NCBI GenBank assembly: GCA_024138025.1
Contig: JAMXBD010000578.1
Span: 540,001-604,000 of the forward strand
Source: Combretum micranthum
Taxonomy: Eukaryota > Streptophyta > Magnoliopsida > Myrtales > Combretaceae
Length of the DNA: 64,000 nucleotides
Reading direction: 5' to 3'
Within the stretch, counting starts at the first letter, position 1; every line of letters begins with the position of its first letter. Positions 5,863-64,000 of this stretch are shown piece after piece. The notes beneath the pieces were generated by a model that worked only from the letters and a program-made list of their open reading frames with translations, was not told the DNA's origin and made no database searches. The translations under genes and the position numbers were made by a program.

Positions 5863-6575
5863 TGTAAAGACCCGATATGCTCAATTCTCAAATTAAGCAC
5901 ACCAAGTCCCCCAACCACGTATAACTCTTACGAATTATATGTAGGTTGTCTTTAAGAAGGTGTTTATGTTGAACATGCTATCCGATTTTAGATTGTGAAA
6001 TCATTCAATTAGATTTGGCAACAACTGGATTTAGCAGCGGAAATAAATTTTATAAAACAACTTATGAATTTCTACTCCCTATAGAGCAAACCAGTTTTCT
6101 AAGAAATTAACTTTATAAAAACACTTTATGATCTTACTCTTAGGGGTAGATAATCATTTACAATCAATTGGGCATTAACAAGCCCTTAAAAGAAAATACA
6201 ATTTATAAATAAATCCAGTCCTCTTACAAAACAAAGCAAAAGAAGAAACAAAATATAAGAAATGTCTCGACCCTATCACACTTCACTCATTCTCCCATAT
6301 CTTCAGAATCGCCCAAAACTCGAGACAAATACCATCACATCGATCATCATCACCATCACCATCCTCGTCAACATCAACATCAACAACAATAATAAGAACA
6401 ACAACATCAATTGTCTCCACATCATCATCAAGTCATCATCTCATCATCAACATCAACAATAACAATACCTGTAAAAAGAATAACAACAACAATAATGAGC
6501 TGAAGCCCAGTACACAGCAACACAATCACATACGGAGTGACACACGAGCTTAACTAAATGCAATGCACAATCAAC

Positions 6576-6580
6576 AAGTT
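6576..6580. repeat. Left TSD (AAGTT) of the inner solo LTR
   Basis: Exact partner AAGTT at 9,368-9,372. The uninterrupted relative at 55,320-59,306 reads 'CACAAGTTATTATC' here, confirming the empty site. Confidence 0.85.
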
Positions 6581-7244
6581 TGTAAAGACTCGGCCCACTT
6601 AACCCAATTATTAAGTGTGCCAAATCTTCCGACCAGCATAATACTCAATATTAGGATCAATATTCAAGTATTATACGTAAGGTCGTCTTAAAAAGAGTTG
6701 TTTGTAATGGCTACCTGTTTAAAACAAATATAACATTCATAAGCTTAGAATTAGAAACATTACCACTACATAGGTAGTGGATCATTAACTATATACAAGT
6801 CATCATAATTATATTTATACATTACAACTTCCCAAAACATCACATAAACTAGAGATCTCACTTAAAACCTAACTATATTACAAATATAATTCACACAAAT
6901 TACATTCCAAGGCTTAACAAATAAGCCTAAACACTTCAAAAAGAAAACTTCATCAAAAGGAATCCTAAGCATATCTAGGCCTCTCTCCTAGTCATCCATA
7001 GAGTCTTCCCAATCATTCCCATAGCCCATATCGTCATAGAGCTCGTCATCAAATCGCCTGCAAGATAGCAGCATGAGCCAAAGGCCCAGTACACAATAAT
7101 GCAAACAAATACATATGCAATGCTCACTTAACTAAAAACAATATAATAAATCACCACAACTTCATTATTTTTTTTTTTTAGTTAAGTGAATAAAACAACA
7201 CTGGAGTATTCAAACTCCGACTCAAGCTTGGGAATTCTAGGGGT

Positions 7245-7268
7245 CCTGAGTAACAGCAGCTGCTCAGG
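7245..7268. promoter_or_regulatory. Conserved LTR hairpin
   Basis: CCTGAG and CTCAGG arms enclose TAACAGCAGCTG, with a second palindrome (AGCAGCTGCT) in the middle. Equivalent elements occur in other family members at 9,450-9,473, 48,597-48,620, 49,296-49,323 and 56,095-56,118, with changed inner sequence but retained pairing. Function unknown. Confidence 0.5.
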
Positions 7269-8164
7269 GGCTTGATATAGATAGACCGGATATCTATATC
7301 TCCTATATCTAACCGATAAAGAACAATAGATTCATCTAGGGTTCACACTCCTTTATACAATCCATTATCCCGGTCTATAATATCAGTTAGTTCAACGGTC
7401 CCATAACGTGGACTAAACATATTATTTCCTCCCGAGCCTAAGTAGAGAATATACCGATACAGTTAACCCTATTAGCTACCTACTTAGCCAATAAAAGAAA
7501 TCACCATTGATCATGGTGAACCTTGCATCATGGATTTGAGTCATTGCATCATGACAAAGGATTGGGCTAAGTGCCTAACTACTGTGCCATTGCATCATGA
7601 CAAGGTTGTCGCTCCCCGGATCCGGATTCAACGACGTAAAGCACAACCAATTTCTATCTTTTCATTAATATTTGATTAAGGTCAAATTGATATATGCCTA
7701 TCCTAAGCAACAATCAATCAAAGTATTGTGTACCTGTACTAGCTCGAGAATCAATGGGAATAACCGGAAGGGGATCACTCACTGTAAAAAGAAGTAATTA
7801 TAAACTCACACTAGTTCTAGTATATATATTCATCAATTCTCAAGTATAATCATCCAAAGAAATTCAAATAAATCATTACAACATCATCACATAGCATTTA
7901 GATATCATATATTATCATACAATACTCAACAAATACTTAAATGATCATTTATCAAGCTTGGGAGAACCTTTAACAACTAACAATAAGTTTTAAACTTTGT
8001 TTAGAAAGTGTATCAGTTGAAAAGAACTAAAATTTAAGCATTTTAAATTTTAAAATTTGTGAAAACTTAAAACATGAAAGTTATATATCTCTTTTTAGCT
8101 TTCCAACGCAATTCGAATCACCTCAATCGGGTCGGATGAAAAAAGTTATGACTAGTTTACAAAA

Positions 8165-8412
8165 CAGCGTCGCAACAGGGAAAATACGAGAGCGAAACGC
8201 CCTAGCAAACGGGGCCGTTTGGGAGACCATTTGCACTCAGGGAAAATGAAATTTTGATCCGCGAGCGCAACACCCTTGCAAACGGGGCCATTTGGGAGGC
8301 CGTTTGCTCTCAGGGGAAAAAGGAAATTTTGATCCGCGAGCGCAACACCCTTGCAAACGGGGCCGTTTGCGAGGCCGTTTGCTCCAAATGGGGCCGTTTG
8401 CACCAGCGTTTG
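8165..8412. repeat. GC-rich ~75-bp tandem repeat module of the inner LTR
   Basis: Three units of about 75 bp starting near 8,188, 8,261 and 8,336. Each carries GAGCGCAACACCCTTGC, then CAAACGGGGCCGTTTG (an inverted repeat around GG), then GGGAGGCCGTTTGC. Much more GC-rich than surrounding DNA. It occupies the position where sister LTRs carry unrelated modules. Confidence 0.8.
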
Positions 8413-9367
8413 ACAGTTTACGAAATTTTTTTCAAACTTTAACACTTTTAACTTACTTTTCTCAACTCCTAACATGTCATAAACCTTATACAAACTTCAT
8501 ACAACACTTCTTATGCATTTAACAACATAAAACAAGAGTGATTTCCACGCCTCAACTTTAAACAAGTTCAAACACTACTACAGAAATCAAACACTTCTTC
8601 ATCAACCTTCACCAACCCTAGTACACTTCAAACAATCCTAATACTTGTCATACTTCAACACTTCAATTCCAAACCACATGAGGGCCTTCTACAACCTATC
8701 TACAACAACTCAAGCATTCTAAAGCTTTCCTAACAACTCTACAACATTCCAACAAGAATTTAGCATACTAAGTACTTATTTTACACATATATGCATATTT
8801 CATGAATTAAGAGGGAAATAAAACATCTCAAACATCAATAAACTTACTCAATGTATCTATAAGGCTTGGGGAAGGATTTTTGGTGTGTTGAGTCCAAGAA
8901 AACTTGTTTTGGGTCTTGAAAATTTGTGGCCTTCTTGAGTTACGAATTTTCTTTTTTTCCTTGCTCTTTTTGAAGAGTTAATGATACAATTAGACTTTTG
9001 TGTTTATCCTATTATTGTTGACTTTTGAGGAGGCAGATTTGGGAAAGGCTTGGGCCTTATTTGGGCTTGGAGTTAGACTTAATTTGGGCTTAAGAAGGGT
9101 AAAATAAAATCTGCTAAGTTTAATCTCTATTTAGGCCTAAAACAAGTTTAATCCAACATATACAATTCATTACAATAACAATTAACACTAACATGATAAT
9201 TTCTAACATGAATAAACTATCAACCTAGATATATTTACCATAGCATATTATCTAATCACATATGTTATAACCATACATTACAAATACACTAATCCACTCA
9301 AACACATACACACATATAATTATCAAATTTAGCATGCATTAATATATTAAAATTATGGCTATTTTCA

Positions 9368-9372
9368 AAGTT
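9368..9372. repeat. Right TSD (AAGTT) of the inner solo LTR
   Basis: Exact copy of 6,576-6,580. Confidence 0.85.
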
Positions 9373-9700
9373 ATTATCTTTTCTTTAAAATAAACAAATC
9401 AACAATGGAGCACTCACACTCCGGAACAAGCCAATGGGAATCTGGGGGTCCTGAGTAACAGCAGCTGCTCAGGGGGTTTGATATAGATAGATCGGATCTT
9501 ATCTCCTATATCTAACCGATAAAGAATATTAATAGCATCATCTAGGGTTCACACTCCTTTATACACTCCACTTATCCCGGTCTATAACATCAATTAGTTC
9601 AACGGTCCCATACCCGTGAACTAAAACATATTATTTCCTCTCGAGCCTAAGTAAAGAATAACAGTTAACCCTATTAGCTACCCACTTAACCCTTAAGATA

Positions 9701-9807
9701 AACCACCATTGCATCATGGTGAACCATTGCATCATGGATTTGAGTCATTGCATCATGACAAAAGATTGGGCTAAGTGCCTAACTACCGTGCCATTGCATC
9801 ATGACAA
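9701..9807. repeat. Cluster of CATTGCATCATG motifs in LTR
   Basis: Four copies of the 12-mer CATTGCATCATG (or ATTGCATCATG) at irregular spacing. The same cluster appears at 7,530-7,600, 56,360-56,445 and, reversed, 36,160-36,250. It lies upstream of the conserved CCGGATCCGGATTCAACGAC block. Possible protein-binding array of the LTR. Confidence 0.5.
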
Positions 9808-10222
9808 GGTTGTCGCTCCCCGGATCCGGATTCAACGACGTAAAGCACAACCAACACTCATCAATTATTAAGCCGTCTTTAAGTTCTTAATCCATTTAGG
9901 ATGCCTATCCTATCAATCATCATGCAAGTCACTGCGTACCTTATATACGAAATCCAAACAGAGTCTCAGAAGGAATTCCAGAAGATAAATCAGATATGCA
10001 CTTCTGTTAAGGAAAGAGTTCGTATAAGAAACTAAACTAAACTAATCATCCACTTCATCAAAATCATATAAGAACTTAATCTATTTATCAATTCATCTCA
10101 AACTCATTTTATTAAACCCTATTTGATCAGACACTAAATAGGAACCCCACTATGGCTGGGAAGATCGCCCCGCCAAAATATGGACAGTTCTCCTTTGTCT
10201 GTCAAAGAATTTCTTTTCTCTT

Positions 10223-10230
10223 TATTTATA
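10223..10230 (-). promoter_or_regulatory. TATA-like box of Tekay-like LTR
   Basis: TATAAATA on the minus strand inside CACTATAAATAAAGAG, followed after ~20 bases by a strongly conserved block (GACAAAGGAGAACTGTCC). The same box is at 50,008-50,015 in another copy. Likely the LTR promoter; the transcription start is inferred. Confidence 0.5.
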
Positions 10231-11012
10231 GTGTTTTATTACAAAAGCATTAACAAAGAATTCATAAACCAAAAACATTCATTTTCCAAGTAACACGCAT
10301 TTGAAACAACATATTCCCCATATTAATCAAAGATCATCCTATTTCATTCATCTAAGCTAATTCATAGCTATTAACCCATTTTAGCTTAACATTAGTCAAA
10401 TTGCTTAAAATTATTCATTTGATTCATTTACTAAGTCAAGGTGATCAAACTATATCAATCTAATTCATTTTAGTTTAGTAAAGTTCATTAAGCCAAGTTG
10501 GACTTAGATTAATTACTAATTCATACTATATCTAAGATCTAGTCACTTAATCTAAGTTATCTTAAGCCTATCCAAATTCATCAAAGTTAAACAATGTAAT
10601 CCATTTAGTTCATTAAGTTCATTTAGTCAAGTTGAACCTAGGTTTGTTAACTAAGTTCATTTTATAACTAACTTCTAGATTTAATCTAATTATTTGTTAA
10701 ATCTATAAATCTACTTAACCCATATTTAATTACATGAATTAATTCACTCAACACATCAAATATCACTTATCTATCTCATTTTAGCTCAAAAGGATCCATT
10801 TCCTAAGCAAAACACATTTAACAAACAAAAACAAGTTTTTGACTTTGTTTTGAAAAGTGTTGCAGCTAGAAAGAATCAAAATTTAAGCATCGAAAAGTTT
10901 CGAATTTGTAAAAACTCAAAACATGAAAGTTGTATATATCTTTTTAAGCTTTCCAACGCAACTTGAATCACCTCAATCGGAGGTCTTATGAAAAAGTTTG
11001 GCTAAAATACAA

Positions 11013-11175
11013 ACGGCTGCGAGACAGGGGAATGCTGCACGATCGAGTGCATGGCCGTGCTCGAGGCCGTGCAGAGCATGAAAAAGTGACCCGAGACAAA
11101 GTTTTAAGCATTTTAAGGGCTGCACAGGCTTGTGCATGGCCGTGCATAAGGTTGTGCACACTGGAACGACAAAAT
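11013..11175. repeat. Variable GC-rich module, 'GGCCGTGC' type
   Basis: Contains GTGCATGGCCGTGC twice plus CGAGGCCGTGCAGAGCATG, i.e. short phrases with internal inverted symmetry. It follows the conserved LTR flank 'CAATCGGAGGTCTTATG' and has no similarity to the modules in the other copies. Confidence 0.65.
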
Positions 11176-11599
11176 TACGAAATCCTTTGTTCTTGAAATG
11201 CATTTTACACTTTTCAAAGTTCTTTAAACTCATTCCAAAGTTCCCCAAGCTTGTTACATGATCAATATAACATTCAAACAACATAAACTTCACATTCATC
11301 ACATCAAACATCTCAAACTTCATCAACCTCCATAACCACTATTCATCATCTTCTTCCTCCAACTCAACCCAATCTAACTTCAACTCAACAATTACAAAAA
11401 TAAACAGCACTTTCAACCAATTGAACATCAATTAATCAATTACAAATGTAAATTGCAAGTAAAAACAAGTGAAATAGAAATAGAAAACTTAGCTTTTTAG
11501 CTAAATCATGCAATTCCTTCTTCTTCTAGCTTTGATTCTTCTTTCCTATCTTCTTGCTTAGTGTTAATTTATCTTCTTGATCTTGTCTAAGGTTGAGAT

Positions 11600-11700
11600 T
11601 GAGAAGGAAAGATCAAAGAAAGAAAGAAAGAGAGAAAGAAAGAAAGAAAGAGAAGAAGGAAAGAAACCGATAGAAATAAAGAAGAAGAAGAGAGAGGCAG
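11600..11700. repeat. GAAA/GAA-rich simple sequence
   Basis: Runs of GAAAGAAAG followed by GAAGAAGAAG in the LTR. Counterparts are at 51,415-51,500 and 58,735-58,860, and (reverse complement) 33,330-33,413 and 62,330-62,445. A conserved low-complexity block of the family LTR. Confidence 0.7.
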
Positions 11701-12179
11701 AGGATATAGAGTTTAAAAGAAAAGGATAGGGACTAAATTAATATAAAAGGATTATAGGTATAATTTTAGAACTATTATATCAAATATCTATAGTTTCAAG
11801 AGTATTTAAAAGTTTGTTTCGAAACCAATATGTTAGAAATTAAGAACTTGCAATAAGAACTTAATTTGAGAATTTATTTTAGATAAAAGATATTTAATTT
11901 GAGTTCGGGTTTAAGAACTGATATTTTTATTCAAGCAAATGAACTCAAATTTTGTAAAGATTTAGGGATTAGTGTTTAGGCTAAGAATCAAGAGTTTAGG
12001 AATCCTCTAAACATTTCAATGACTTGTTTAGAGAATTTAGATTTGAAATCTCAAATTTCATTTAATTAATTACTAATCTAACTTTGTCAACTTGTCTATT
12101 TATATCTTATGATTAATTTAATTCATTCAAATCTATCTAAACCCAATTTCTAATATATGTGAAGGTTTAGGGTATTTCA

Positions 12180-13149: not shown

Positions 13150-13440
13150 AAACCATCTGTCGAGTTTAGACTTTAAGATTTGTTAGGTCAACTGTCGAGC
13201 CTAGGCTTTAGAAAACTGATAGACCATCTGTCTGGCCTAGATTTAGAAAAATGATATACCATCTGTCGGGTCTAGATTTAAAAATGATAGACCGTCTGTC
13301 GGGTCTAGATTTTAGAAAACTGCTAGGTCATCTGTCGGACCTAGGTTTGGTCATTTGCCGGACCTATGGGCTTTGGTTTGGTCATTTGCCGGACCTATGG
13401 GCTTTAATTTGGTCATTTGCCGGACCTATGGGCTTTGGTT
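13150..13440. repeat. Minisatellite arrays (~37-bp and ~33-bp units) in Tat 3' region
   Basis: First array: four to five units of 'TAGACCATCTGTCGGGTCTAGATTT' type, about 35-40 bp apart. Second array: three near-identical copies of TTTGGTCATTTGCCGGACC plus TATGGGCTT, unit about 33 bp. Both lie between integrase and PPT. Confidence 0.8.
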
Positions 13441-13469
13441 TGCTGGGGATTTTTGAAACCTTAAAGATT

Positions 13470-13770
13470 TGGTTTCTTGATCCATTTGGGAATTCTTGAT
13501 CTTCAGGGAAACTTGATCTTCTGGGAAACTTGATCTTCTGGTCCACTTGGGGATTTTTTTATTTTCTTGGAAACTTAACTTGCTGGTCCATTTTGAGGAA
13601 ATTTGATCTTTTTGATCCATTTGAGGAAACTTGATCTTCTTGATCCACTTGAGGAAACTTGATCTATCTTGATCCACTTTAGGAAACTTGATCTTCTTGA
13701 TCCATTTGAGGAAACTTGATCTATCTTGATCCATTTGGGACTCTAAGCTTCTTGATCCATTTGAAGAATC
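13470..13770. repeat. Minisatellite array, ~29-bp unit, in Tat 3' region
   Basis: About eight units of TTGATCCATTTGAGGAAAC followed by TTGATCTTC, spaced 28-31 bp, with progressively diverged units at the left edge. Adjacent to but unrelated in sequence to the arrays at 13,150-13,440. The repeat accounts for the long accidental frames on both strands here. Confidence 0.85.
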
Positions 13771-14202
13771 TTGGTCTTTCGTCGGTTAACGTGTTTAGGG
13801 CTTTTCCGACGTTCACATAACCGTGTTCAAAAACTAGTTATCTTGTGCAATACAATCACAGATAAAATTGTATATATGCATTTTAAAGCCATATGGGATG
13901 CCAAATTACTTTCTACAGATTTTGGGGTTTGGGAATTTGTTTAAGTGATAGGTTGAGATTTGATCTGGTTTGAGAATTTTTGGAAATTTGTTTGAATGGG
14001 ATGATATTGATGAGTTCAAAGTTTTTGGGATATCAACTTTGTTTGTAAAAACTAAAAATGAAATCAACTGAATACAGAAAATGACAAATTTTATTGATCA
14101 TTCATAGTACATCTTTACAGCATCTGAGTTTACAGGATCCTTTAAATCAGGTCCATCCATTTGGGAAAGAATCAATTGCTCCTCCCGACAATACTTTTCT
14201 AA

Positions 14203-16527: not shown

Positions 16528-17331
16528 TCACAAATCCCAATAGTTTCCCAGAGTTACTCCAAAAATGCACTTTTCTGGGTTTAATTTTAATTGAAACTTT
16601 CTCAATCTTTCAAAAAGTTTCCTTAATACTTCTACATGATCTTCTCCTTCTTTTGATTTGGCAATCATGTCATCAACATATACTTCCACCTCTCTATGCA
16701 TCATGTCATGCAATATGGTCTGCATTGCTCGCTGATAAGTTGCTCCGGCATTCTTGAGACCAAATGGCATGACCTTATAGCAAAAAGTTCCCCAGGCTGT
16801 GACAAATGTGGTTTTGACCTTGTCCTCTTCGGCCATCAATATTTGATTGTATCCCGAAAATCCATCCATAAATGAGAATAGATGGTTTCCAGCTGTATTG
16901 TCTACCAAGACATCAATATGTGGCAACGGGAAATTATCTTTTGGGGTCGCTTGATTCAAGTCTCTAAAGTCCACACAGATTCTAAGTTTCCCATTTTTCT
17001 TAAGTACTGGTACTATATTTGATACCCAATCTGAGTAATCCGAAACTTCAATGAATCCAACTTCGAGTAACTTCTTGACCTCATCTTTAATTTTAAGTAG
17101 CAAATCGGGTCTAAATCGCCTTAATTTTTGCTTCTTAGGCTTAACGCCTTCTTTGGTTGGCAATTTATGGACCACAATTGACGGATCTAAACCGGGCATA
17201 TCACTATATGACCATGCAAAAACATCCAAATACTCTGCTAGTAGCTTAATCAAACCCTGTGTTGTGTCTTCTGGCAATTTACCCCCAATTCTCAAATTCC
17301 TAGGGTCTTCACTTGTTCCCAAATTAACCAA
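16528..17331 (-). pseudogene. Tat reverse transcriptase
   Basis: A 267-codon open frame with all main RT blocks: YSDWVSNIVPVLKKNGKLRI (about residues 99-118), FSFMDGFSGYNQI (152-164), MPFGLKNAGATYQ (188-200) and the catalytic YVDD (218-221). The segment upstream (AEYLDVFAWSYSDMPGLDP) is the usual Tat linker. The frame breaks shortly after NPEKCIFGVT. It copies element RNA into DNA when intact; here the domain itself is nearly complete but cut from its neighbours by frameshifts. Confidence 0.9.
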
Positions 17332-17507
17332 TTTAGTGGGTTCAGGGTTTCAATCCTTTATGGTCAAAGTTTTGCCAATTTTCTTGTGTTTTCAATTGAT
17401 AATCGATATCATCTTCAACGACTAACCCAGTAGGGTTGGAGGTGATATCGATATTTTCAGTATTTACAGACGCGAGATATCCCGGAACCTCATCACAAAA
17501 GTCGGAT

Positions 17508-33413: not shown

Positions 33414-33535
33414 TGTAAAAATCCGACATGCTCAATTCTTAAATTAAGCACACCAAGTCCCTAACCACGTATAACTCTTACGAATTATAAGTAAGGTTGT
33501 CTTAAAAGAAGATGTTTATGTTGAACATTGCTGTT
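33414..33535 (-). mobile_element. First 122 bp of a minus-orientation Tekay-like LTR
   Basis: TGTAAAAATCCGACATGCTC through GTTGAACATTGCT matches the LTR start at 5,863 and 55,320. Similarity then stops abruptly at the integrase fragment. The rest of this LTR appears to resume at 49,260 with about 700 bp missing. Confidence 0.7.
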
Positions 33536-34502
33536 CAATTTTATTCCATTGAGAGTCAAGTATTCACTCGAAAAGTTGGCCCAGATTTATATTCGAGAGA
33601 TAGTGAGATTACATGGTATACCAGTGACCATCACTTCAGATGGCGATACCAGATTTGTCAGTCGATTCTAGAAAAGTCTCCATGAAGCTCTTGGGACAAA
33701 CTTATAGTTTAGCACAACATTTCATCCACAAACTAATGGCTAATTAGAAAGGACGATTCAGATTCTTGAAGATATGCTTAGAGCTTGTGCCCTAGACTTT
33801 GGAAGGAATTGGGATGAACACTTACCTCTGGTTAAGTTTGCATACAATAATAACTATCAGAAAGCGATTCAGATGGCTCCATATGAAGCATTATATGGGA
33901 GAAAATATAGATCTCCTTTGTATTGGGATGAAGTAGGCGAGAGAGTGTTAATTGGTCCTGATTTGGTACAACAACCAATTGATAAAATTCAAATCATCAA
34001 GTAGAGATTAAAAGTAGCTCAAGACCGATATAAAAGTTATGCTGACTTGAGAAGAAGACCTTTGGAGTTTGAACTTGGAGATCATGTGTTTCTCAAGATA
34101 TCTTCGACGAAAGGAGTTTTTAGATTTGGAGTAAAGAGCAAATTGAATCCAAGATATATTGGACCATATGAAATTTTGGAACGAATCGGGCCATTAGCTT
34201 ATAGATTGGCACTACCACCAAGTTTGTCAGGTGTTCATAATGTTTTTCATGTGTCTCAGCTTAGGAAATGCATATCTAATCCCGACGCTATATTGGACAC
34301 AAATCAACCGGAGATACTACCAGATTTGACTACTAAGGAGAAACCGATCAGAATTTTGGGCAAAATGGATAAAGAATTAAGAAATAAAGTGATACCGATG
34401 GTAAAAGTCCAATGGAGTAATCAATCCGAGAGAGAAGTGATTTGGGAAGTAGAAAGTGTGATGAGACAGAAATACCCTGAACTCTTTGAAGACTTGAGAT
34501 AA
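33536..34502 (+). pseudogene. Tekay-like chromovirus integrase and chromodomain, 5'-truncated
   Basis: Starts mid-core at IVRLHGIPVTITSDGDTRFV (second catalytic Asp in SDGD) and continues through FHPQTNG and LERTIQILEDMLRACALDFG (catalytic Glu in LERT), then WDEHLPLVKFAYNNNYQ. Stops at the positions of W and Q break the frame. From 34,047 to 34,502 a 151-codon frame is open: GDHVFLKISS, KLNPRYIGPYEILERIGPLA, LSGVHNVFHVSQLRKC, ending VKVQWSNQSEREVIWEVES, the chromodomain-like tail of Tekay elements. All gag, protease, RT and RNase H sequence is missing upstream. Confidence 0.85.
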
Positions 34503-34522: not shown

Positions 34523-34543
34523 CTTCTTGAAGGAGGAAAGAAT
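34523..34543 (+). other. Polypurine tract of the truncated Tekay-like element
   Basis: GAAGGAGGAAAGAA follows TTTCGGGGACAAAAC, just after the pol stop, and ends at the LTR start TGAAATAATC. Confidence 0.75.
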
Positions 34544-35524
34544 GAAATAATCTAAATTATTCAATAATTAAAATTTGCATGTTAACACAATATTTGTTCT
34601 AGATATTCAATTTGAAGTAATTTTTATTCATGAAAATGAATGTGTAGAAATAGGATTGATATATTATGTTTATTAATGTTAATTATTGATGTAAGTGATT
34701 ATGTGTAATGAAATTAATGTTATTGTTTTATATGTATTAATGTGTGTATAGTATAATTAATATTTGTGTCGTTTATGCATTAATATGTTTGTGTTATGTT
34801 TAAATTTATAAAAAAAACTTTGGAATTTCTAAAAGCTTAGTGGGTAGCCCATTTTTATGCCCAAATTACATCCAAATGAGCTCCAAATTGAACCAAATTT
34901 AACCAAAAGTCTTATATGCCTCAAAAGTCAAACTTAAGATAATTTTGAGTCATAAATTTGATCAATTAAGGCGTCTTTTGGCAGCCCTCCATTTTCATAC
35001 GAATTTCCCCCTTCTTTCTCTCCTTTTCTCTTTTCTTTCTCTTCAAACTACAAGCCCTAAACCCAAGATCAATACTAAGCTTTTGAAATTCAAAAATATC
35101 TCCAAGCTAAAGCTTCTACATGTAAGTTAAAGCTATTATTGACTCTTGTTTTATTTCCTTTCTTGTAGTATATATGTGAAATCTATGGTAGAATGAGTTT
35201 AATGTCTTTTGAGTTGAGTGATTTTATGCATGAATATTTGCTAAGTTGTATTAAATAGACATGTGAACTTTGTATGTGATGGAAGTTATGAGAAGTGAAG
35301 TTGATTTGATTAGTTGAAGTTGAGGACGAGTGGGATAAGATTTCATGCGAATGAAGTGGTTTAATGTGTTGTTTTAATGTTCAAAATTATTAGGATTGAT
35401 TAGTGTGGATAGAAGATAGTATATGAAGCTAAATATGACCTTGAAGAAAGATTAAAAGTGTTGTAGGTTATGAATTTGAAAAGTGCAAAACGGGAAAATA
35501 AATTCTTTTCGAATAGGTCTGTTT

Positions 35525-35705
35525 TTGAAAGTACGTCGGCATCTGGTATTTCAACGCCGTCGGCATAGAGGTGGTGTTGAATGTGATCAAAAACCGATTT
35601 TTTTTAAAGCCACTTTGAACGTCGCCGACTTTTGCAAGAAAAATTTGCCAGCGTTTATTTTTCAAAAGTACGTCCGCCATTAGGGCTTCAATGCTGCCGG
35701 CGTTC
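35525..35705. repeat. Variable module, 'GCCGGCGTT' type
   Basis: Repeated short phrases: TTTCAACGCCGTCGGC, AACGTCGCCGACTTTTGC, CTTCAATGCTGCCGGCGTT. GC-rich in an AT-rich LTR. Only the copy at 58,130-58,290 shares the theme, in opposite orientation as expected. Confidence 0.65.
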
Positions 35706-36307
35706 ATTTAAATTTTGCCTGCTTAGAAAGGCTTCGTATCCCCTGAGTTTTTCAAATTCAAACTTCTTCAATTTTCAATCTTTACTTCATATATGATCTC
35801 CTAATTAGTATATAAGCTAAATAAACATGTTTTATGTATGAATTAGATGTTAAAACTATATGCTAAGCTTATTGAATGTCCTTGTATAGTTAACCTAGGA
35901 TTATAATATATATATATATGTGAATTTTATATTCAATTATTGATTGTTTTGATATTCTTATTTTAGTTTAATGTTCTTCGGTTATTTCCCCTCTGAGTGA
36001 ATATAGTCATTTACTATCGGGTTCAGGTATGCAATAGCTTGTTTGTTGTGTGCTAAAACTAAGAATTCTTAAATTGATTTAATTCAATCCAACTTAATGC
36101 TTTGATGAACTGGATGTCTATTACGCTGTTTAATCTGGTCCGAGGAGCAACAAACCTGTTATGATGCAATGACATGTTAGTTAGGCGCTCGAACTAAGTC
36201 ATGATGTAATGACTTTACCATGATGCAATGGTACGCTATGATGAAATAGTGATTCATTTCGGTTAAGTGGGTAGCCGTTGGGGGGAATAATATTTGACTA
36301 ACGTTTG

Positions 36308-36312: not shown

Positions 36313-36938
36313 AGTAAACCCCCAAATTTTTGGAATCGGTTTAGCATAAAACCCTAAACCAGAAGTCAACCGGAACCCTAAAGGTCAACAAAACCCTAGT
36401 TATACGAAGTAGCTTAAAGTCCGGCAATCCCGAATAAGAAACTCGGTGAAAGTAAGTAGGAGTTTAGAATATAGAATAGTGCGTAATTATATAAGGTAGC
36501 ATAAAAAGATCAGATTAGTAAAATCGCAACCCATCTTGAATCCGATTGGACACGGTTCTTGAAAAACGTGTCCCGGGACCCGAAATAGTAAAAATATCAG
36601 ATATCGCATTTATACGCATATTTTCTTACTACCGGTACTTTATTAGTCATATCTACTTTACATTACACTATTCATTACTATTCTACACTATTCTTTTCTC
36701 TCTATTTTTTCTTACACCTACTCTTACAAACACCATAACCTATAACCTTTACTTTTTACCTTTCCCATAACTTTATTTCACATCTACCTTACATATTACT
36801 TCTTTAAATTAACAAAATACAAAAAAATAAAATCTCTCCCCCTCTCTCTTACCTATGGCCGGCGCATGACCCCCCTTCCCTCAATTTGTTTCAATTTTTC
36901 ATTTAATTTAATCATACAAAAATCACCCCACATTTTCT

Positions 36939-36946
36939 TATAAATA
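36939..36946 (+). promoter_or_regulatory. TATA-like box of Z 5' LTR
   Basis: TATAAATA in TTCTTATAAATACCCCCTCC, conserved at 45,631-45,638 and, reversed, at 60,542-60,549. Downstream is a CT-rich, ACTCTCTC-repeating leader, so the start of transcription is probably near 36,970. Confidence 0.65.
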
Positions 36947-38999: not shown

Positions 39000-39130
39000 G
39001 TCGAAAGCAACACTTGGCGGAGTATCCGAAAGCGATTGCTTGGCGGCTTAAAGGAAATGCTTGGTAGAAAATCCGTAAGCAAGGTCAATTCAAGTAGACT
39101 CAGGATGCTTGGCGATGAGTGGTCGTAAGC
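39000..39130. repeat. GCTTGGCGG repeat module in Z LTR
   Basis: Four or five copies of (A/T)GCTTGGCGG alternating with AAAGCAA or TAAGCA phrases. Also in the 3' LTR (47,675-47,810). The solo Z LTR carries an unrelated repeat at the same place (54,440-54,620). Confidence 0.65.
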
Positions 39131-39749: not shown

Positions 39750-39768
39750 TTGGTATCAGAGCATGGTT
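39750..39768 (+). other. Primer binding site of element Z
   Basis: TTGGTATCAGAGCATGGTT begins eight bases after the LTR end; TGGTATCAGAGC is complementary to the 3' end of initiator methionine tRNA, the usual primer for plant chromoviruses. Confidence 0.9.
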
Positions 39769-48422: not shown

Positions 48423-50694
48423 ACTTAGGGGGAAATACCATGGTTTAGTTCAAATTTATGTGAACTTGTGAACTAGGCTCATGTTGTGGACTGAGTTTAA
48501 GTAGAGTTGAGCAACGACTTTTGAACCCTAAATGAAGCTATTTCTTTATGGAATAGATTTATGAGATATAAGTATTCGAACTGCTTATATTAATCTCATG
48601 AGCAACTGTTGTTACTCAGGACCCCTAAATTCCCAAAGTGTGATTCCGGTGTTTGAATACCCTCTCGTTGTTCTGTAGAAGAAAACTTAATAAGATAATG
48701 ACTTGATTCATTGATGCAATTCATTTGATTTAAGTTTGCTTGATAAATTGTTCTTGTATTTCGTTATTGCGTACTAGGTCTTTGGCTCACTTTTGCTACT
48801 TTGCATGTAATGGAGATGAGTTATATGATGATCTGGGTTATGGGTCAGACTTTGAGAGATTCATAGATGAGTGGGACGAATAGGACTCGAATGCCCCTGG
48901 ATTTTGGAAAAGCTTTTGTTTAAAAGCAAAATTCTTTATATAGAAGGCTTGATAGATAAGCTTAAGATGTATAGACCATAAGATCTCTTAGGGTTACTTT
49001 TTGTATTAAGAAAAACTTGTAATTTTTGTAGTGTCTTGTATTGACACTAAACTTTGTACATATGATGTATATATATTTATAGATTTCTTTTATTAGCAAT
49101 CTTGTTTTATTAAAGGTTGTTTCTAAAGTTTTAGTAGATTTAATCAAACAATTCTCATAAACTGTTAGTTTTAGGACAACCTTACATATATGAAAATGTT
49201 ATATGTGGTTGGGGACTCGGTGCTCTAAATCTTAGGATTTAGTAGGTCGGGTCTTTACACCACACCTTCCGGCATAGCCCGTACTACTAGGGGATCTTGA
49301 GTAACGCATCACGATGCTCAGGGAGTTGATATAAGTAGCTCGGATACTTATAGCTCCTAGATAAATCTATCCAATAACGAAAAAGTAATCTCACTTAGGG
49401 TTATCAACCGTTTCTCGACTTTGCTTAACTCAATCCATAATATCACCTAATTCAAGTGTTCCCATAAACATTGAATTAAATCATATTACATCCTTTCAAG
49501 AATAAGCAAGTGTTATACCGATACCGAGTACCCTATCAATTACCCACTGAACCACTTATGAAAGTCATTTCAATATGACAGGGGTGGTCTAAGCGCCTAA
49601 AACTACCATGCCCCCAATCTGAGCAAGGTGCCGCTATCCCAACTAGATTCAACGGCGTAAAAGACAATCAAAACTCATCAATTATTAAGCCAAGTTTAAG
49701 TTCTTAATCCATTTTAGATGTCTATCCTAACATCATACATGCAAGTTACTGTGTATCTTGAATATGAAATCCAAACATAGAATCGGAAGGAATTTTAGAA
49801 GATAATCCAGAAGATAAATCAGATATCCACTTCTGTTAAAGAAAGAACTCGTATAAGAAATTAAACTAAACTAATCATCCTCTTTCTTAAACTTTTATTA
49901 ACCCTATTTGATCAGACACTAACTCGGAACCCTACTATGGCTACGAAGATTGCCTCGCCAAAATATGGACAGTTCTCCTTTGTCTATCAAATAATTTCTT
50001 TTCTCTTTATTTATAGTGTTTTATTACAAAAGCATCAACAAAGAATTCATATACCAAAAACATTCATTTTCCAAGTAAACACACATTTGAAACAACATAT
50101 TCCCCATATTATGCAAAGATCATCCTAATTCATTCATCTAAGCTAATTATTAGCTATTAACCCATTTTCGCTTAACCTTAGCCAAATTGTTTAACCTTAA
50201 TCATTTAATTCAAAAACTAAGTAAAAGATGGTCAAACTAACTCAGTCTAATTTATTTTAACTCATTCAAGTCTATTTAAATAAATTGAACCTAAGTTTGT
50301 TAGCTAAATTCATTTTATAACTAACTTCTAGATTTAATCTAATTATTTGTTATATCTATAAATCTACTTAATTCATGCTTAATTAAATCAATAAATTAAC
50401 ATAACACGTCAAACATCACTTATCTATCTCATTTTAACTTAAAAAGATTTATTTGCACTTAACAACAAATATTTAGAAAGTAAATACAAGTTTTGACTTT
50501 GTTTAAGAAAACATAATAGCTATAAAGAACTAAAATTTAAGCATTGATATGTTTAAAATTTGTAAAATCTCAAAACATAAAAATTGTAGATCTCTTTTTA
50601 AGTTTTCTAACGCAACTTGAATCACCTCAATCAAAGATTAGATTAAAAAGTTATGATAAAAATATGAAAACATCTCAAATTTCGAAATTCAACT

Positions 50695-50945
50695 TTTCAA
50701 AGGACACAGCCAAGGGACAAGTCGTGTCTCCAAAATGTCAACCGGGCAATATCACCACAGCTAACGACACGGCTTGGGGACAGGCCATGTCTCCAAAATG
50801 TCGACCTGGGAATATCACCACAGCTAACAACACGGCTTAGGGACAAGCCATGTCTCCAAAATGTCACTTAAAATTTCAAAGAAAAAGCCTTTGACATGTT
50901 TTGTGACATGGCTTGTCACAAAAATGTCTTTTTGACAGCCCATGT
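50695..50945. repeat. Variable module with 63-bp tandem units
   Basis: Units start near 50,703, 50,766 and 50,829: GACACGGCTTGGGGACA, GGCCATGTCTCCAAAATGTC, then GAATATCACCACAGCTAA. The phrases GACACGGC and GCCATGTC give it internal inverted symmetry. The third unit is partial and followed by related phrases (GACATGGCTTGTCAC). Confidence 0.8.
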
Positions 50946-51414
50946 TCTTTTGAAAAACGACTTTTGAAAACATTTTTATCAACTTCAAACGTCATTTTAA
51001 ACACATATACAACTTCATACATGAATATACTTTACTTTCAACATATCAAACACTTCAAATATCATTTTAAACAACTCAAACACTTCAACACTTCCAAATA
51101 CTCCATCAAACTTCTATTCTCAATTCATCATTTTCCTCATCACAATCCCAACTCCCATAAACCATAAATCCAATAAATACATATATAAACAATACTTTTA
51201 ACTTATTTATAACATCCATACATCATATAAACATATAAAGAACAATTAAAGTAAAAGATAAATTGAAATAGAAAACTTATCTATCCAAGAACACATGCAC
51301 ACTTGAGTTTTCTTTATACTTCTAGCTTGAATTCCTTCTCCAATCCCCATTTCTAACTTGATTCTCTTTTATTCCTTCTTGAATTTGAGATTTAAAGAGA
51401 AGAATTTGAGAGAA

Positions 51415-51500
51415 AAAGAAAAAGGAAAGGAGGAGAAGAAGAAATAGATACAGGAAAAGAAGAAGAAGAAGAAGAGAGAGAGAGAGAAAAAAAGAAAGAT
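51415..51500. repeat. GAA/GA-rich simple sequence
   Basis: GAAGAAGAAG and GAGAGAGAG runs inside the LTR; accounts for leucine/phenylalanine-rich frames on the minus strand that are not genes. Confidence 0.75.
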
Positions 51501-51988
51501 AAAAGGCAGGAAACAAAAGAAATATAAAATGGAAAAGATAAATATAAATATATTTTCAAAATAAGGCATTGGATTTAGAACTACCAGATCAATATCTATA
51601 GTTCTAGAAGTATTTAGAAGATGATTTCTGAACTAACAAGTTAGAAATTAAGAACTTAAAATAAGAACTTACTTTAAGAATTTATTTTAGATAAAAAGAT
51701 ATTTCATTTGAGTTCGGGTATAAGAATTGATATTTTTATTCAAGCAAATGAACTCAAATTTTGTGGGGATTTAGGAATTAGAGTTTTGGCTAAGAATTAA
51801 GGATTTAGTAATCCTCTAAACATTTTAATGACTTGTTTGGAGAATTTAGATTTCAAATCTTAAATTCGACTTAGTTAATTATTAATCTAGTTATGTTAAC
51901 TTGTCTAGTTATATCCTATAATTCATTTAAGTTATCCAAATCTATCTAAACTTAATTTCTAACATATGTGAAGGTTTAAGGTATTTCA

Positions 51989-55319: not shown

Positions 55320-58300
55320 TGTAAAAACCCAACATGCTCAATTCTCAAATTAAGCACACCAAGTCTCCAACCACGTATAACTCTTACGAATTATACGTAA
55401 AGTGTCTTAAAAGAAGGTGTTTATGTTGAACATTGCTATCTGATTTTATGTTATGAAATCGTTTAGTTAGATTTTCAGATAATTGGATTTAGCAGTGGAA
55501 AAATAAACTTTAATAAAAACGTTTCTACATAAAAGCATTTCAAACTTCCACTATTATAAGTGGAAAAACTTTCACTTTGATAAATATTTAGAAAAGTTTA
55601 TTTACAAAACTTGGGCACTAACAAGCCCTTAAATGAAAATACAAATTTATAAATGAATCCAGTCTCTATAAAACAAATAAAAGGAGAAACAAAACAACTA
55701 AACTACTCAATGCTCCTGACTCACATCACTCATCCACACTCCTTCCCGAATCAACAGAAGCACCCAAAAACACGAGACAACATCATCAATAGCAACAACA
55801 TCATCATATCATCGTCTCATCATCCATCATCACCAATATTAACAACATCAACAAGAACTCATCATTTTTTACTTCATCAACATCATCTTTATCAACAACA
55901 AAACCTGTAAAAAGAATAACAACAGCAAGAATGAGCCGAAGCCCAGTACACAGTAACACAATCACACACGGAGTGGCACGCAAGCTTAACAAAATGCAAT
56001 GCATCAATCCACAAGTTATTATCTTTTCATTAAAATAAACAAATCAACAATGGAGCACTCACACTCCGTAACAAGCCAGTGGGAATCTAGGGTTCCTGAG
56101 TAACAGCAACTGCTTAGGGGGTTAATATAGATAGACCGGATATCTATATCTCCTATATCTAACATATAAAGAATATTAATAGCATCATCTAGGGTTCACA
56201 CTCCTTTATACACTCCACTTATCCCAGTCTATAACATCAATTAGTTCAACTGTCCCATACCCGTGAACTAAAACATATTATTTCCTCCCGAGCCCAAGTA
56301 GAGAATATACTGATATAGTTAACCCTATTAGCTACCCACTTAACCAATAAAAGAAACCACCATTGCATCATGGATTTAAGTCATTGCATCATGACAAAGA
56401 TTGGGCTAAGTGCCTAACTACCGTGCCATTGCATCATGACAAGGTTGTCGCCCCCAGATCCGGATTCAACGACGTAATAGACAACCAATACTCATCAATT
56501 ATTAAGTCGAGTTTAAGTTATTAATCCATTTTAGATGCCTATCTTAACATCCAACATGCAAGTTACTGCGTACCTTGAATATGAAATCCAAACAGAGGAG
56601 AAGCTATCTCAGAAGATATGTTAGATATCCATCACTATTAAAGGAAAGAACTCATATATGAAATTAAACTACCATCCACTTATATCAAATTCATATAAGA
56701 ACTTATATCAAACTTTTATTAAACTCTATTTGATTAGACACTAATGTGGAACCCCACTATGGCTACGAATATCGCCTCGCCAAAATATTGACAGTTCTCC
56801 TTTGTCTGTCAAATTAATTCTTTTCACTTTAATTATAGTTTCTTATCACAAACATAACATATATAAAGCATTCATACATAAAAGCATTCATATTCAAAGC
56901 AAATATACATTTGAAACGATATATTGCTCATGTTATTCAAAGATCATCATAACACATTCATCTAAGCCAATTATTAGCTATTAACCTATTTTAGCTTAAC
57001 CTTAGCTAAATTGATTAGAATTAGTCATTTAATCTAAAACTAATTCAAGTTGATTAACTTAAGTAGTCTAATTCCTTTTAGCTAATTCAAGCTCATTTAG
57101 TCAAGTCGAACTTAGATTCATTACTAATTCATTATACATTTAGGATCTATGTCAATTCAAGCTTACATTAACTTAAACTTAGCCAAATTAATTAACCTTA
57201 ATCATTTAATTCAAAAACTAAGTCAAAGATGGTTAAACTAACTCAATCTAATTCATTTTAACTCGTTCAAGTCTACTTAATCAAGTTGAACTTAAGTTTG
57301 TTAGCTAAACTAACTTTAAACTCAACATTTAAGGATTTCAAAGATTACTTACATGAAGGTATAACTTAACAAGTATTCATCTAACAACATTATATTAACT
57401 TTTAAAATCATTACCTATAACTTCAAATCATATATATAATATACCTAGCTTTAAACATTAAGCACAACACTCATAAAATTCAAATATAATTCATACATAA
57501 GTTTAACTTCACACTTACATGCTTAACAAGTTCAATAGCTAATCATAATAACAAATGATAAACAAGGAAAACAATTGAAGAAAAACATAACTTAAATCAT
57601 ACTAAATCTTAAGCTTAACATCAAGGAAATTCAAATAAAATTCATATAAATACATAACTCAACATTTATATACTTACGAAGATCATTTAATTTCACTAAG
57701 TGGTCACAAGATCATAAAACAAGCAACGAAAATCATTATATACAACATAACTACTTTTAGTTTAATACTCATGGAAATTCAATTATTTGTTGAATTTATA
57801 AATCTATCTAAATCATGCTTAATTAAATCAATCTATCAACATAACACATCAAACATCACTTATCTATCTCATTTTAACTCAAAAAGATCCATTTCTTAGG
57901 CAAAAACACATTTCACAAACAAAAACAAGTTTTGAATTTTGTTTGTAAAAATGTAGTAGCTGGAAAGAAGCCAAATTCGAGCATTGATAATTTTGGAATT
58001 TGTAAAAACCCAAAACATAAAAGTTGTAGATCTTTTTTTAATCTTCCTATAGCAACTTGAATCACCTCAATCGGAGATTGTGTGAAAAAGTTATGTCCAA
58101 AATACGATCAAGCTGCGAAACAGGGCAATGTTAGAAAACGAACGCCGGCACTTCTACACCGACAGCGTAAATCTCGAAACCGGCAGCGTTGGAGGTAGCT
58201 TAAGAAAATGCATTTTTTTCACTTCAACATCGCCTCAAAGCCGACCGTGTAGAAGCTCCAGGAGGCGGTGTTGACTACAGAACAGGTTTGCGAAAACATG

Positions 58301-59306
58301 TTTTGTACACTTTCCTTTTATCAAACTTCTTCAAATCATCTACTAAGCTTCCTATATCAATTCTAACATCAATAAACTCTAATAACAACTCCTAACACTT
58401 CAATCTTCCTCCATCAACTTCAAACAACAATCAAACCATCATAACTACTATTCATCATCTTCTTCCTCCTTCATAATCCGACCTTCAACAAGCATATATC
58501 AACAAATACATAAATAAACAACACTCTCAATCCAATTCAACATTAACTCATCAATTACAAATGTAAATAACAAGTAAAAACAAAGAGAAATAGAAATAGA
58601 AAACTTATCTCTTTGAGCCTACTCATGCAATTCATTCTTCTTCTTCTTATTGAAGCTAATTCTACTTGATCTCCTCTTTCTATCTTGTTTCCTATCCTTA
58701 ATTTATCTTCTTGAATTGAGTTTTAGAGAAAGCAAAAGAAAGAGAGAAGAAGAGATGAGAAGAAGAAGAGATGAGAAGAAGAGAAAGAAGTAGGAAATGA
58801 AAATGAATGGGAAGAAAAGGGCAGCCAAAAGAAAGAAAAGAAAAGGAAAGGGTAAAGTTAAATTTGGATAAAATAGAAATAGGATATAGGTTTAGAACTA
58901 TCAGATCAATATCTATAATTCCAGAAGTATTTAAAAGATGATTTCTGAACCGATAGGTTATAAATTAAGATCTTAAAATAAGAATTTAATTTAGGAATTT
59001 AATTTGGATACAAAGATATTTAATTTGAGTTCAGGTTTAAGAACTGATATTTTTATTCAAGCAAATGAACTTAAATTTTATTGAGATTTAGGAATTAGTG
59101 TTTAGGCTAAGAATCAAGAGTTTAGGAATCCTCTAAACATTTTTAGAACACGTTTAGGGATTTTAGGAATTTCAAATCTCAAAACCAACTTAATTATTAG
59201 TTAATTAAATTAAGCCAACTTGTCTAATTATATCCTATAATTCATTTTATTCATTTAATTTATCTAAACTCAATTTCTAATCTAGGTGAAGATTTGGAGT
59301 ATTTCA
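55320..59306 (-). mobile_element. Tekay-like solo LTR, complete (3,987 bp)
   Basis: TGTAAAAACCC to GAGTATTTCA with a perfect AAGTA TSD, inside the Z solo LTR. The longest uninterrupted family LTR in the window and the reference for the others. Carries hairpin (56,095-56,118), CATTGCATCATG cluster (56,360-56,445), conserved core (about 58,040-58,095), variable module (58,130-58,290) and GAA-rich tract. No coding content. Confidence 0.9.
58130..58290. repeat. Variable module, 'AACGCCGGC' type
   Basis: AACGCCGGCACTTCTACACC, GAAACCGGCAGCGTTGGAGG, GCCGACCGTGTAGAAGC, GGAGGCGGTGTTG. GC-rich; theme shared with 35,525-35,705 in opposite orientation. Confidence 0.65.
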
Positions 59307-61768: not shown

Positions 61769-64000
61769 TGAAATACCCAAAACCTTTACCTAAATTAGAA
61801 ATTGGAAGAATTGGATAGTTTAAAAATTCAAGTAAAATAAACAATGAGTTATTATTAGATAACAAGGCATAATTAAAATTCGTAAATAGATCAAATTGAG
61901 ATTTGATATTTAAAGTACTCTTTTAAATCATCTATACGTCTCAATGACTTTTCTTATGAATTAAACTTTTCAATTTCTTCAAATTCTTCATTGAGATTTA
62001 TTTTTCTTCATTTTCAATTCTTAAATCTTAAAAGAAAAATTTTAAATGTTTTGCAAACTCCTAAACCCTTGAATCTTAGTTTTAACTTTTATTTTTTAAA
62101 ATCCATAATTTTGAAAATCAACTTTTTGTTAAAATGTCTTTTTAAGCCAAATCCAACTTAAATGTCAATTTTCTATAAATTGTATTCTTAAACTAGATTT
62201 GCAATCAAGACAAAAAATATTGTTATATAGATTCTCAAATTATTTTCTAATTACTTTTAGAACTTAAGATAATTATCTGAAAAGCTTAAGTTGAAACCTT
62301 TAATCGTTAAATATCTTTTGTTTTCTTTGTTCCTAACATTTTCTTTTCTTTTCCTTTTATCTTTTGCTACTCTCTCTTTTCTTTGTTCTTTTCTTTTCTT
62401 TGTTCTTTTTCTTCTTCTCCTTCTTCTTCTTTTCGCTTTTCTTTCTTCCAAAATCAATCCCCGAATCTCAATTTCAAGAAGAACATATGAGAAATTAAAG
62501 ATAGGAAAGAAGATAGGAGATGGAACAAACTCTAAGTAGCACCAACAACAAGAAAAGAAGATGAAGTAACCTAGGAATTGTTAAACATGTAAGTTTTGTT
62601 GTTTTCTTTATGTAATTGTTGTGTAAGCTTGTATATGATGTATTAATACTATAGATAAGTAGGGTTGATGATAAAACTAGTGCATAATTGATGTATGAAC
62701 TTAAGTATCAAAACCTAAGTGTGTTTAAGCATGTAAAACTAGTTGTTTGATGACAAGATTCAAGGAGATATAAAGTGAGAATATATATTTAGGAAGTTTA
62801 GTTATTGGTATGTTTGATATATTGATTATAAGATGTTGTATGTTAAGTTTGTGATACAAAACAAGTAGTTAAAATAAACTAAGTTTCAAAGTTTTGAAAC
62901 AGAGAAAAACAGGAGAAAAACATGATTTTTGGGTACTTGGTCAAAAGTCACAGGCATGACAATGGATTTTAAAGTAATGATTCAATAGTTTTCGCAAATC
63001 ACGAGTGAGATCTATCCCAGCTAGCCACTGTTTTAGGAAAAATTTATTGTCACGGCTTGATTAATCTTTTATAAACATAAAGTTGAAGAATTTTATGAAT
63101 TGCAACCGTGATCCACCCCTTGTTAGTCTCGAGTTGTTTTAAAGAACTTCAAGATCTCAAAATCATGGGAGTGATTGATTCCTTGATAGCTTTGGGTGTT
63201 TGAGTTTTTCAAGATCATGAGCATGATTCAACCCGCGATCACCTATGTTTGCCTTCCCTTCCTTGATCACAGGCGTTATCAAAGGCGTGATTTGGAATCA
63301 TGATCTTAATCATGGACGTGATTCATGGTTGTGTCTTGTTTCACCTTGTTTAAATAAAACAAATTAGATAATTGATGGATAAAGATATGATATGTTAGTG
63401 CTTGTATAAATGAGTTAAATGAATTAATAGGATTAATAACTAACTTAGGTTAATATAGTTTCTAAGTATAAAATGAACTTAGTTAATGGACTTAGTCAAT
63501 AAACTTAAGTTTAACTTGACTTTATAAACTATAATGAGTTAAAATGAATTAGATTAACTAAGTATAATCGTCTCGACTAAGATAAGATTAATATAGACTT
63601 AGCTTATAACTAACCTAGATTAATGAGTTATGATAAATCTTAAATGATAAGGAGTGTGTAATTTCTAAAATATGTTAGACCAAAGCTATGTTTAATTAAA
63701 AATAATTTGATAGATAACAAAGAACTATTCATATCTTGGCAGGGCAATCTTTGTAGCCATGGCTCAGTTTCTATTTTATGTATGATCAAATAAAAGCATA
63801 AAAAGGAATGTTTAATATGAAATTGATATAAGTTAATAGATAATTGAATATGTCATATAATTTAATCTTTTGAATAGATATCTAGATTTGGTTTTGGTTT
63901 CTATTTCTTCTGGATTATCTTCTGATCTCCATCGAGTTTTCAACAACGTATATAGTAACTTGTGTGTTGTATGATAGGATAGGCATCTAAAATGAATTAA
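61769..64000 (+). mobile_element. Tekay-like LTR in copy 2, running off the window
   Basis: TGAAATACCCAAAACC at 61,769 after AAATA, in the same place as 32,741 in copy 1. It follows the family LTR through the pyrimidine-rich tract (62,330-62,445), a variable module (62,935-63,320) and conserved blocks such as GGATAGGCATCTAAAATG at the very end. It is incomplete: relative to 55,320-59,306 roughly 1.2 kb more is expected beyond 64,000, then either the TSD AAATA or a PBS. Confidence 0.8.
62935..63320. repeat. Variable module, 'ATCATGAGCATGATT' type
   Basis: Phrases such as TCACAGGCATGAC, GATCATGAGCATGATTC, GATCACAGGCGTTATC, AAGGCGTGATTTGG and AATCATGGACGTGATTCATGG recur through 380 bp. Each is close to an inverted repeat. 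Unrelated to the modules of other copies. Confidence 0.6.

Follow-up and report, generated by a model that had tools for sequence, protein, structure and literature searches.

Du et al. 2010 (Plant Cell) reportedly found that autonomous and non-autonomous partners in soybean swap LTRs, with whole LTRs being exchanged. The Arabidopsis element in which recombination during transposition bursts has been studied is said to be ONSEN. Palindromic phrases of a kind similar to those described below occur in the LTRs of other plants. In barley, BARE2 RNA is co-packaged in BARE1 particles and, in the excerpted text of that report, the dimerisation and packaging signals of the parasite BARE2 are conserved while its partner's splice signals are missing (PMC3735527). 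Non-autonomous endogenous pararetroviruses share regulatory sequence with autonomous partners, according to the excerpt of a second report (PMC5491270). How a plant retroelement recognises its own RNA, and how non-coding elements track a changing coding partner, are open questions.

We analysed a window of 64,000 nucleotides from Combretum micranthum (contig JAMXBD010000578.1) that contains six GC-rich modules within LTRs, four in minus orientation (A2, A1, C and B) and two in plus orientation (D and E). The elements presumably belong to the Tekay (Del) chromovirus lineage, the name given to them in an earlier, sequence-only reading of this DNA. Each module is a discrete block of the LTR, approximately 150-450 bp long and about 1 kb from the sense 5' end; the start lies 0.96-1.17 kb from that end in the six window LTRs, and the constant internal place that the sequence-only reading had noted for these six also holds for genome copies outside the window. 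Its observation as a whole was confirmed, with all six modules located where it had placed them. On the minus strand, module A2 (8165..8412) consists of 75-bp tandem units with CAAACGGGGCCGTTTG phrases, module A1 (11013..11175) carries TGCACGGCCATGCA-type phrases, module C (50695..50945) is built of 63-bp units with GACACGGC..GCCATGTC phrases, and module B (58130..58290) is the sole window module with kin in the window, namely D. On the plus strand, module D (35525..35705), adjoined by the end of a pol gene, has AACGCCGGC..GCGTT phrases, and module E (62935..63320) has AATCAC..GTGATT phrases. The further claim that the modules are mutually unrelated save for D and B also held: D/B was the only alike pair among the 15 module pairs (score 34 versus a shuffle maximum of 16), whereas for each of the other 14 at least 8 of 200 composition shuffles equalled or exceeded the score. 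Direct 6-mer repeats exceeded dinucleotide shuffles in five of the six modules, the exception being B. Inverted 6-mers did so in only two (A2, p=0.017; C, p=0.007; p >=0.10 for each of the remaining four), and inverted symmetry is therefore statistically weak inside the window.

The LTRs that carry these modules show the expected hallmarks. TGAAATA is the sense start of five of them (A1 at 12,179, C at 51,988, B at 59,306, D at 34,543 and E at 61,769), that of A2 lies near 9,367, and at C and D a purine tract precedes TGAAATA. LTR B (55320..59306, minus), a solo LTR of non-coding frame type by its left flank, has a perfect 5-bp target-site duplication, AAGTA, at both sides. LTR C occupies 49287..51988 (minus), its 5' end at 51988 adjoined by the purine tract and its 3' limit uncertain. 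The 5' part of LTR D (34543..36300, plus; the right limit is that of the compared part only) begins with TGAAATAATC behind the purine tract, directly after a pol end at 34005..34499 (plus). This fragment encodes the integrase C-terminal Pfam domain SH3_Tf2-1 (1.3e-28), with Integrase_p58_C below threshold and no chromodomain at E 0.001. LTR E (61769..64000, plus; 5' end TGAAATACCC) runs to the window edge. Two 1.3-kb stretches, 32126-33423 and 61166-62455, are 91% alike; the latter covers the start of LTR E and the former is a truncated relative just ahead of the D pol fragment.

LTR A2 (~6570..9367, minus; ends approximate) is a nested solo LTR of a young family, whose genome copies include seven same-strand pairs ~7.75 kb apart and several copies that adjoin pol. 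It interrupts LTR A1 (5863..12179, minus; TG..CA), which in turn sits inside a third LTR that picks up again at 12180. The insertion flanks of A1 are TTTTG and TTCTG, and an uninterrupted copy of the site reads TTCTA. The modules at 8,165 and 11,013 are not the LTR pair of one element: a solo A2 LTR is nested in LTR A1. Elsewhere in the window, copies of ~3.4 kb at 36315-39751 and 44925-48426, 96% alike and ~8.7 kb apart, are probably the LTR pair of another, larger element, and the frames at 40361-41751 inside this presumed element gave no Pfam match. Tandem arrays with periods of 28, 31, 35 and 57 occupy 13152-13778, not far from an element on the minus strand whose RT lies at 16531-17349. 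By eye, acceptor-like pyrimidine-AG motifs soon followed by donor-like AG/GTAYRC motifs were seen at 7720-7780, 9930-10010 and 35950-36040 (A2, A1 and D); as motifs, they may mark a short leader exon inside the LTR.

Beside all four minus-orientation modules we found the conserved flank that had been reported for them, consisting of TTTCCAACGCAAYTYGAATCACCTCAATC followed by AAAAAGTTATG or a similar sequence and referred to here as the core. It lies at 8100..8128 beside A2, 10950..10978 beside A1, 50604..50632 beside C (1 mismatch to the pattern) and 58044..58072 beside B (4 mismatches), in each case on the minus strand, and is absent at the plus-orientation copies D (35,525) and E (62,935). 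Across the genome assembly (1.86 Gb, 5,442 contigs) the core pattern had 4,356 matches with at most 2 mismatches, compared with 0 for the reversed control. We read 84 core copies, comprising 72 exact matches drawn from the 100 exact matches listed, eight chosen by likeness to A2, and the four window copies; one of the eight (L001) is a window copy again, leaving 83 distinct copies, and the sample over-represents exact cores from the first contigs and omits core-less copies such as D and E. A GC-rich module was detected by score beside the core in 79 of the 84 copies, with a median start at +43 and a median end at +208 past the core. Three of those below the GC score (L048, L054 and L055) have visible phrases and two (L020 and L071) have none; in the latter two, which are alike, the core is soon followed by AT-rich sequence resembling the 5' part of the LTR. 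The right anchor could be placed in 80 of the 83 distinct copies, and ten of these 80 needed manual placement. Runs of ~20 C occur in L035 and L063, which have CAAACG-type modules in a non-coding frame, and the module of L029 is swollen to ~460 bp by repeated CATATGG-type units. Outside this genome, a search of viral_contigs with two core patterns gave 0 matches, and a search of the same set by the pol end gave 10 stretches that fit the peptide pattern, none of which encodes a relative. A protein-level search with a reading frame spanning module and core returned four candidates, none at E 0.001.

Within families the module is stable. Seven A2-family loci, picked by similarity to the 8,100-8,499 stretch itself, had 0 mismatches per pair over that stretch; their divergence from the copy in the window was 0-3% per 100 bp, not above that of the flanks. 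The same module was present in both LTRs of 10 out of 10 element-spaced pairs (0.975-1.0 alike), comprising seven fetched as pairs together with L038/L039, L056 and L068/L089; pairing was by strand and spacing, and only L056 was read with both LTRs. L068 appeared to be an element with two different modules, a candidate we rejected since the second copy probably pairs with L089 (0.993), the first being apparently an LTR of its own. Each element looked at thus has one and the same cassette in its two LTRs, and in the one family compared the cassette is stable. Because the A2-family module varies no faster than its flanks, modules are replaced rather than fast-mutating, and of the earlier description of a hypervariable, cassette-like segment the cassette-like, exchanged part stood and the hypervariable part did not. 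Its suggestion of fast-turning tandem phrases fits the existence of 75- and 63-bp units and the differing unit number in some classes but leaves the exchange unexplained.

Exchange of modules between LTR frames is well supported by comparison of the sampled copies. Pairwise identity correlations across 74 copies were 0.59 between the flanks, 0.24 between left flank and module and 0.61 between right flank and module. In a scan of 75 copies (2,775 pairs; without L001-L007 and the two copies that lack a module), we defined swap pairs as having flanks >=0.92 alike at -300..-20 and +350..+450 with a module <0.70, and share pairs as having a module >=0.88 with flanks unlike on both sides; the thresholds are our own, and unrelated modules score 0.4-0.7 in these alignments. 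There were 20 swap pairs, 18 of which join different phrase classes, the other two (L029/L042 and L009/L057) being length variants of related modules; only 5 of the 20 stay >=0.92 alike over +450..+750. The scan also yielded 55 share pairs. Window-by-window profiles show modules mostly 0.82-1.00 alike per 50-bp window inside flanks mostly <0.8. The proposed check of whether modules are shared by distant LTRs therefore came out positive (55 of 2,775 pairs), and the two sets of pairs support a cassette-like, recombination-prone segment. That a block under weak constraint has simply drifted fast in the ordinary way deserves almost no credence: modules of different classes are indeed unalignable, but A2-family module divergence does not exceed that of the flanks, and the share pairs, with their alike modules inside unlike flanks, refute it.

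The clearest example of exchange is L043/L044, where all 50-bp windows between -800 and +50 of the core show 0.96-1.00 identity, the modules are unrelated, and identity returns to 0.94-1.00 over +350..+1090 save for one window (0.76); in a shorter alignment the pair is only 0.61 alike at +750..+1000, at odds with the window-by-window figures. The module of L044 matches that of L064 at 0.94, and the flanks of L064 give 0.57/0.79 and 0.65/0.52. The switch point in L044 is directly behind ..GGAGGTCGGRTGAAAAAGTTATG, and one exchange edge lies just past the ~50-bp conserved core. At the other side of the module an extra foreign piece precedes the return of L043 sequence near CATCTTCTTCC, indicating that the inserted tract is itself mosaic. 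A second case is L010 versus L018 and L042 (0.84-1.00 on both sides, module windows 0.42-0.72), and L049/L078 is a third. The L044 chimera is present in at least 40 copies (L044 included) at 99-100% over the core and module edge, among the 40 of 6,003 candidates scored, and these include at least four same-strand pairs 7.61-7.68 kb apart, indicating that the chimera was amplified as an element. When the second LTR of L044, L043, L010, L049 and L078 was sought at the expected distance, the core was found in 0 of 10 stretches. The fullest bin of internal ends of high-identity blocks is +50..+100 (46 of 233), and 51 of 178 internal block starts fall at -400..-300, so recombination also takes place outside the module; among 2,008 pairs that differ in both module and right flank, 228 have a common left flank. 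On FastTree trees, with support values unused, the 18 module classes change 33 times on the left-flank tree and 29 times on the right, with a minimum of 17.

To describe the elements that share modules, we took frame labels from left-flank clusters, calling clusters 1, 2, 3, 11 and 12 coding (29 copies), clusters 4-10 non-coding (43 copies) and three copies other. The coding label is direct for part of the copies: pol adjoins L006-L008, L024, L031, L039 and L053, and Pfam domains were found in L094 (RVT_1 and RNase H) and L095 (Ty3-type gag and protease); clusters 1, 3 and 11 are so labelled by likeness alone, and L017 (cluster 12) has a weak pol hit. L056 has LTRs 98.7% alike with 2.3 kb between them and a longest stop-to-stop frame of 85 aa, and in 2 kb of another element, L096, the longest frame is 103 aa; both were called non-coding by frame length, and the other non-coding elements by core spacing. 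Judged by frame length, L056 is LARD-like and non-autonomous, an LTR pair with no coding domain between. Among the matches listed, core spacing was 5.65-6.09 kb in seven elements, five of them judged by spacing alone, versus 7.7-7.9 kb in three of coding type. The frame label changes 4 times on the left tree, the flank from which the label itself derives, and 3 times on the right (minimum 2).

In this sample, module sharing in otherwise unlike LTRs nearly always couples a coding-type with a non-coding-type frame. The combination accounts for 53 of the 55 share pairs versus 1,219 of 1,706 unlike-flank pairs (a base rate of 71%), where pairs are non-independent and the low-flank filter itself favours coding/non-coding pairs. 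In the window, D and B pair a pol-adjoining copy with a non-coding-type frame. Five of nine non-coding module classes, the CAAACG, TACACG, ACGCCG, ATCACG and ACACCC types, have a coding-frame match >=0.92 (best matches 0.92-0.96); the classes M12, M13, M14 and M18, the last being window copy B, had no coding-frame match >0.72 in the 75-copy sample. By copy, a coding-frame match >=0.85 was found for only 19 of the 43 non-coding copies. Of the 29 coding-type copies, 16 contain a splice-donor-like AG/GTAAGTT. It is present in 0 of the 43 non-coding-type copies, 35 of which have AG/(A or C)TAAGTT. The region of this donor-like site is +380..+900 of the core in antisense coordinates, which is upstream of the module in sense (for example in L008, L018 and L039).

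Many modules are built on the phrase scheme NNN-ACG-spacer-CGT-N'N'N', in which the outer letters are family-specific. Of 74 modules, 59 contain phrases of this ACG..CGT kind, 122 in all and 79 when counted as distinct by class; a flank control of ~1,200 bp of the same copies has only 19 (13 distinct), none fully matched. The outer triplets are fully complementary in 42 of the 79 distinct phrases, compared with 9.5% when arms are taken from other module classes. The claim of short phrases with inverted symmetry, weak in the window with two of six modules, was thus borne out in the genome sample. Spacers of the 42 fully matched dyads, searched up to 14, are 2-5 or 13-14 with none of 6-12, classes that rest on few independent families. 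Dyads outside the scheme, GACACGGC..GCCATGTC, ACACCC..GGGTGT and AACGCC..GCGTT, indicate that it is common rather than universal. Mean fold z-scores were -3.1 for modules and -0.5 and -1.1 for flanks, alike on both strands; by raw fold energy the sense strand came out lower for 48 of 74 modules, yet the same was true of 74 of 74 and 68 of 74 flank controls. An alignment of 17 TGC/TAC modules shows two dyads with G-C to A-U changes on both sides (8 and 8 in columns 50/73; 8 and 6 in columns 149/173). The 14 two-sided cells on these dyads compare with 6.4 in shuffles, 0 of 500 being as high; these dyads are a selection of two out of 27 predicted pairs, and kinship alone can beat shuffles without structure. 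The number of two-sided pairs (2 of the 27 predicted) is ordinary, being reached in 297 of 500 shuffles, and in the RNAalifold score of the full consensus covariation contributes little (-1.42 of -19.89). One-mismatch dyads showed no G.U excess on the sense strand (G.U 50 versus A.C 71), a weak test because most copies are decaying. An Rfam scan of the window gave 0 matches at the gathering score. With no G.U excess and equal folding on both strands, selection for RNA hairpins was considered and found unsupported.

Overall, we favour the reading, at a probability of roughly 0.58, that the cassette is a family-specific cis element that is common to partner elements and exchanged by copy-choice at the core. 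During replication, reverse transcriptase would switch at the core from one RNA to another in the same particle, which would require the co-packaging of coding and non-coding RNAs, and working chimeras would then be amplified. Copy-choice fits the sharp edge at the core, the identical modules in both LTRs and the amplified chimeras. Points that count against the overall reading are the recombination in other parts of the LTR, the non-coding classes and copies that have no close coding-frame match, and the presence of modules at D and E, where the core is absent. Less certain than copy-choice is that the cassette may act in cis as an identity element for a factor of the partner family, read either as DNA dyads or as RNA packaging or dimerisation hairpins, and that a non-coding element would profit from the cassette of the coding family lending it machinery; the coding/non-coding sharing and the kept dyads point to such a role. 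We regard it as rather doubtful that the dyad phrases serve as a password by which the machinery of a coding element tells its own RNA or DNA from those of sister families. To the same degree doubtful are the proposals that Gag or a dedicated DNA-binding partner reads the outer letters around ACG..CGT, and that non-coding elements repeatedly steal the cassette of the active coding family by copy-choice at the core.

Other explanations have to be weighed against these data. The cassette could be a transcription-control module, its dyads being DNA sites for dimeric host factors that are swapped like promoter or enhancer blocks, and the coding/non-coding sharing could reflect co-expression rather than packaging. 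We consider both parts of this proposal tenable, though clearly short of an even chance. Fold z-scores equal on both strands, the lack of G.U preference and the spacers of 2-5 or 13-14 (none of 6-12) are as expected for such sites, and blocks of the HERVH LTR7 are exchanged likewise with changes in expression, according to the excerpt of that report (PMC8912925). On the other hand, the module lies ~1 kb into the LTR, past a leader-like pyrimidine tract, and may be downstream of the transcription start; moreover, factor binding is a prediction, and few independent families underlie the spacer classes. It is unlikely that the block is a neutral hot spot, in which palindromes and core would make reverse transcriptase jump and the cassette would have no function of its own, and similarly unlikely that the dyads persist because template switching corrects imperfect palindromes. 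Block edges do cluster at the module edge and other LTR segments are exchanged as well, but outer letters agree inside a phrase and differ by class, the module class changes 29 times on the right-flank tree versus 3 times for the frame, and a core without module was seen, by eye and in a sample chosen by core, only in L020 and L071 of 84 copies. If integrated LTRs underwent ectopic gene conversion independently of replication, short replaced tracts bounded by homology would be expected as well, and none of the results favours such conversion over copy-choice. We hold it to be very improbable given the same module in 10 of 10 element-spaced pairs and the L044 chimera in at least 40 near-identical copies with at least four element-spaced pairs; a copy that was first converted and later transposed could, however, give the same picture.

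The setting makes the recognition question accessible. Thousands of LTR copies are present in one genome, and what they exchange is a short part with definite bounds that comes in several types and occurs in both kinds of element, so recognition becomes testable by comparing packaged or co-expressed RNAs according to module type. Mosaic LTRs can also mislead LTR-based family classification. Among open-licence papers, represented mostly by titles and the starts of abstracts, we found no dyad cassette swapped inside such LTRs. Compared with soybean LTR swapping, where coding and non-coding partners are likewise said to gain common terminal sequence by recombination, the exchange here involves an internal block of ~0.3 kb with both sides staying frame-specific, instead of what are reportedly whole LTRs. 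In endogenous pararetroviruses, region-specific recombination likewise homogenises a non-coding regulatory region between partners, but the region is intergenic rather than an LTR, and the excerpted text describes no palindromic family-specific phrases (PMC5491270). HERVH LTR7, from a primate endogenous retrovirus, likewise has blocks that passed from one subfamily to another in conflict with the overall phylogeny, together with tandem duplication of a block; these are described in the excerpt as factor sites rather than dyad cassettes and with no coding/non-coding partnership (PMC8912925). High-frequency recombination among members of an Arabidopsis LTR family in transposition bursts involves one family, and its excerpt describes no cassette with fixed edges (PMC5668417). 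BARE1 and BARE2 are of the Copia superfamily, with splice sites in gag and not in the LTR and, in the excerpt, no exchanged cassette, yet offer a parallel in that the non-coding frame here lacks the AG/GTAAGTT of many coding-type copies (PMC3735527). Partner LTR swapping, region-specific sharing and block-wise LTR evolution are already known, and the cassette is a variant of these.
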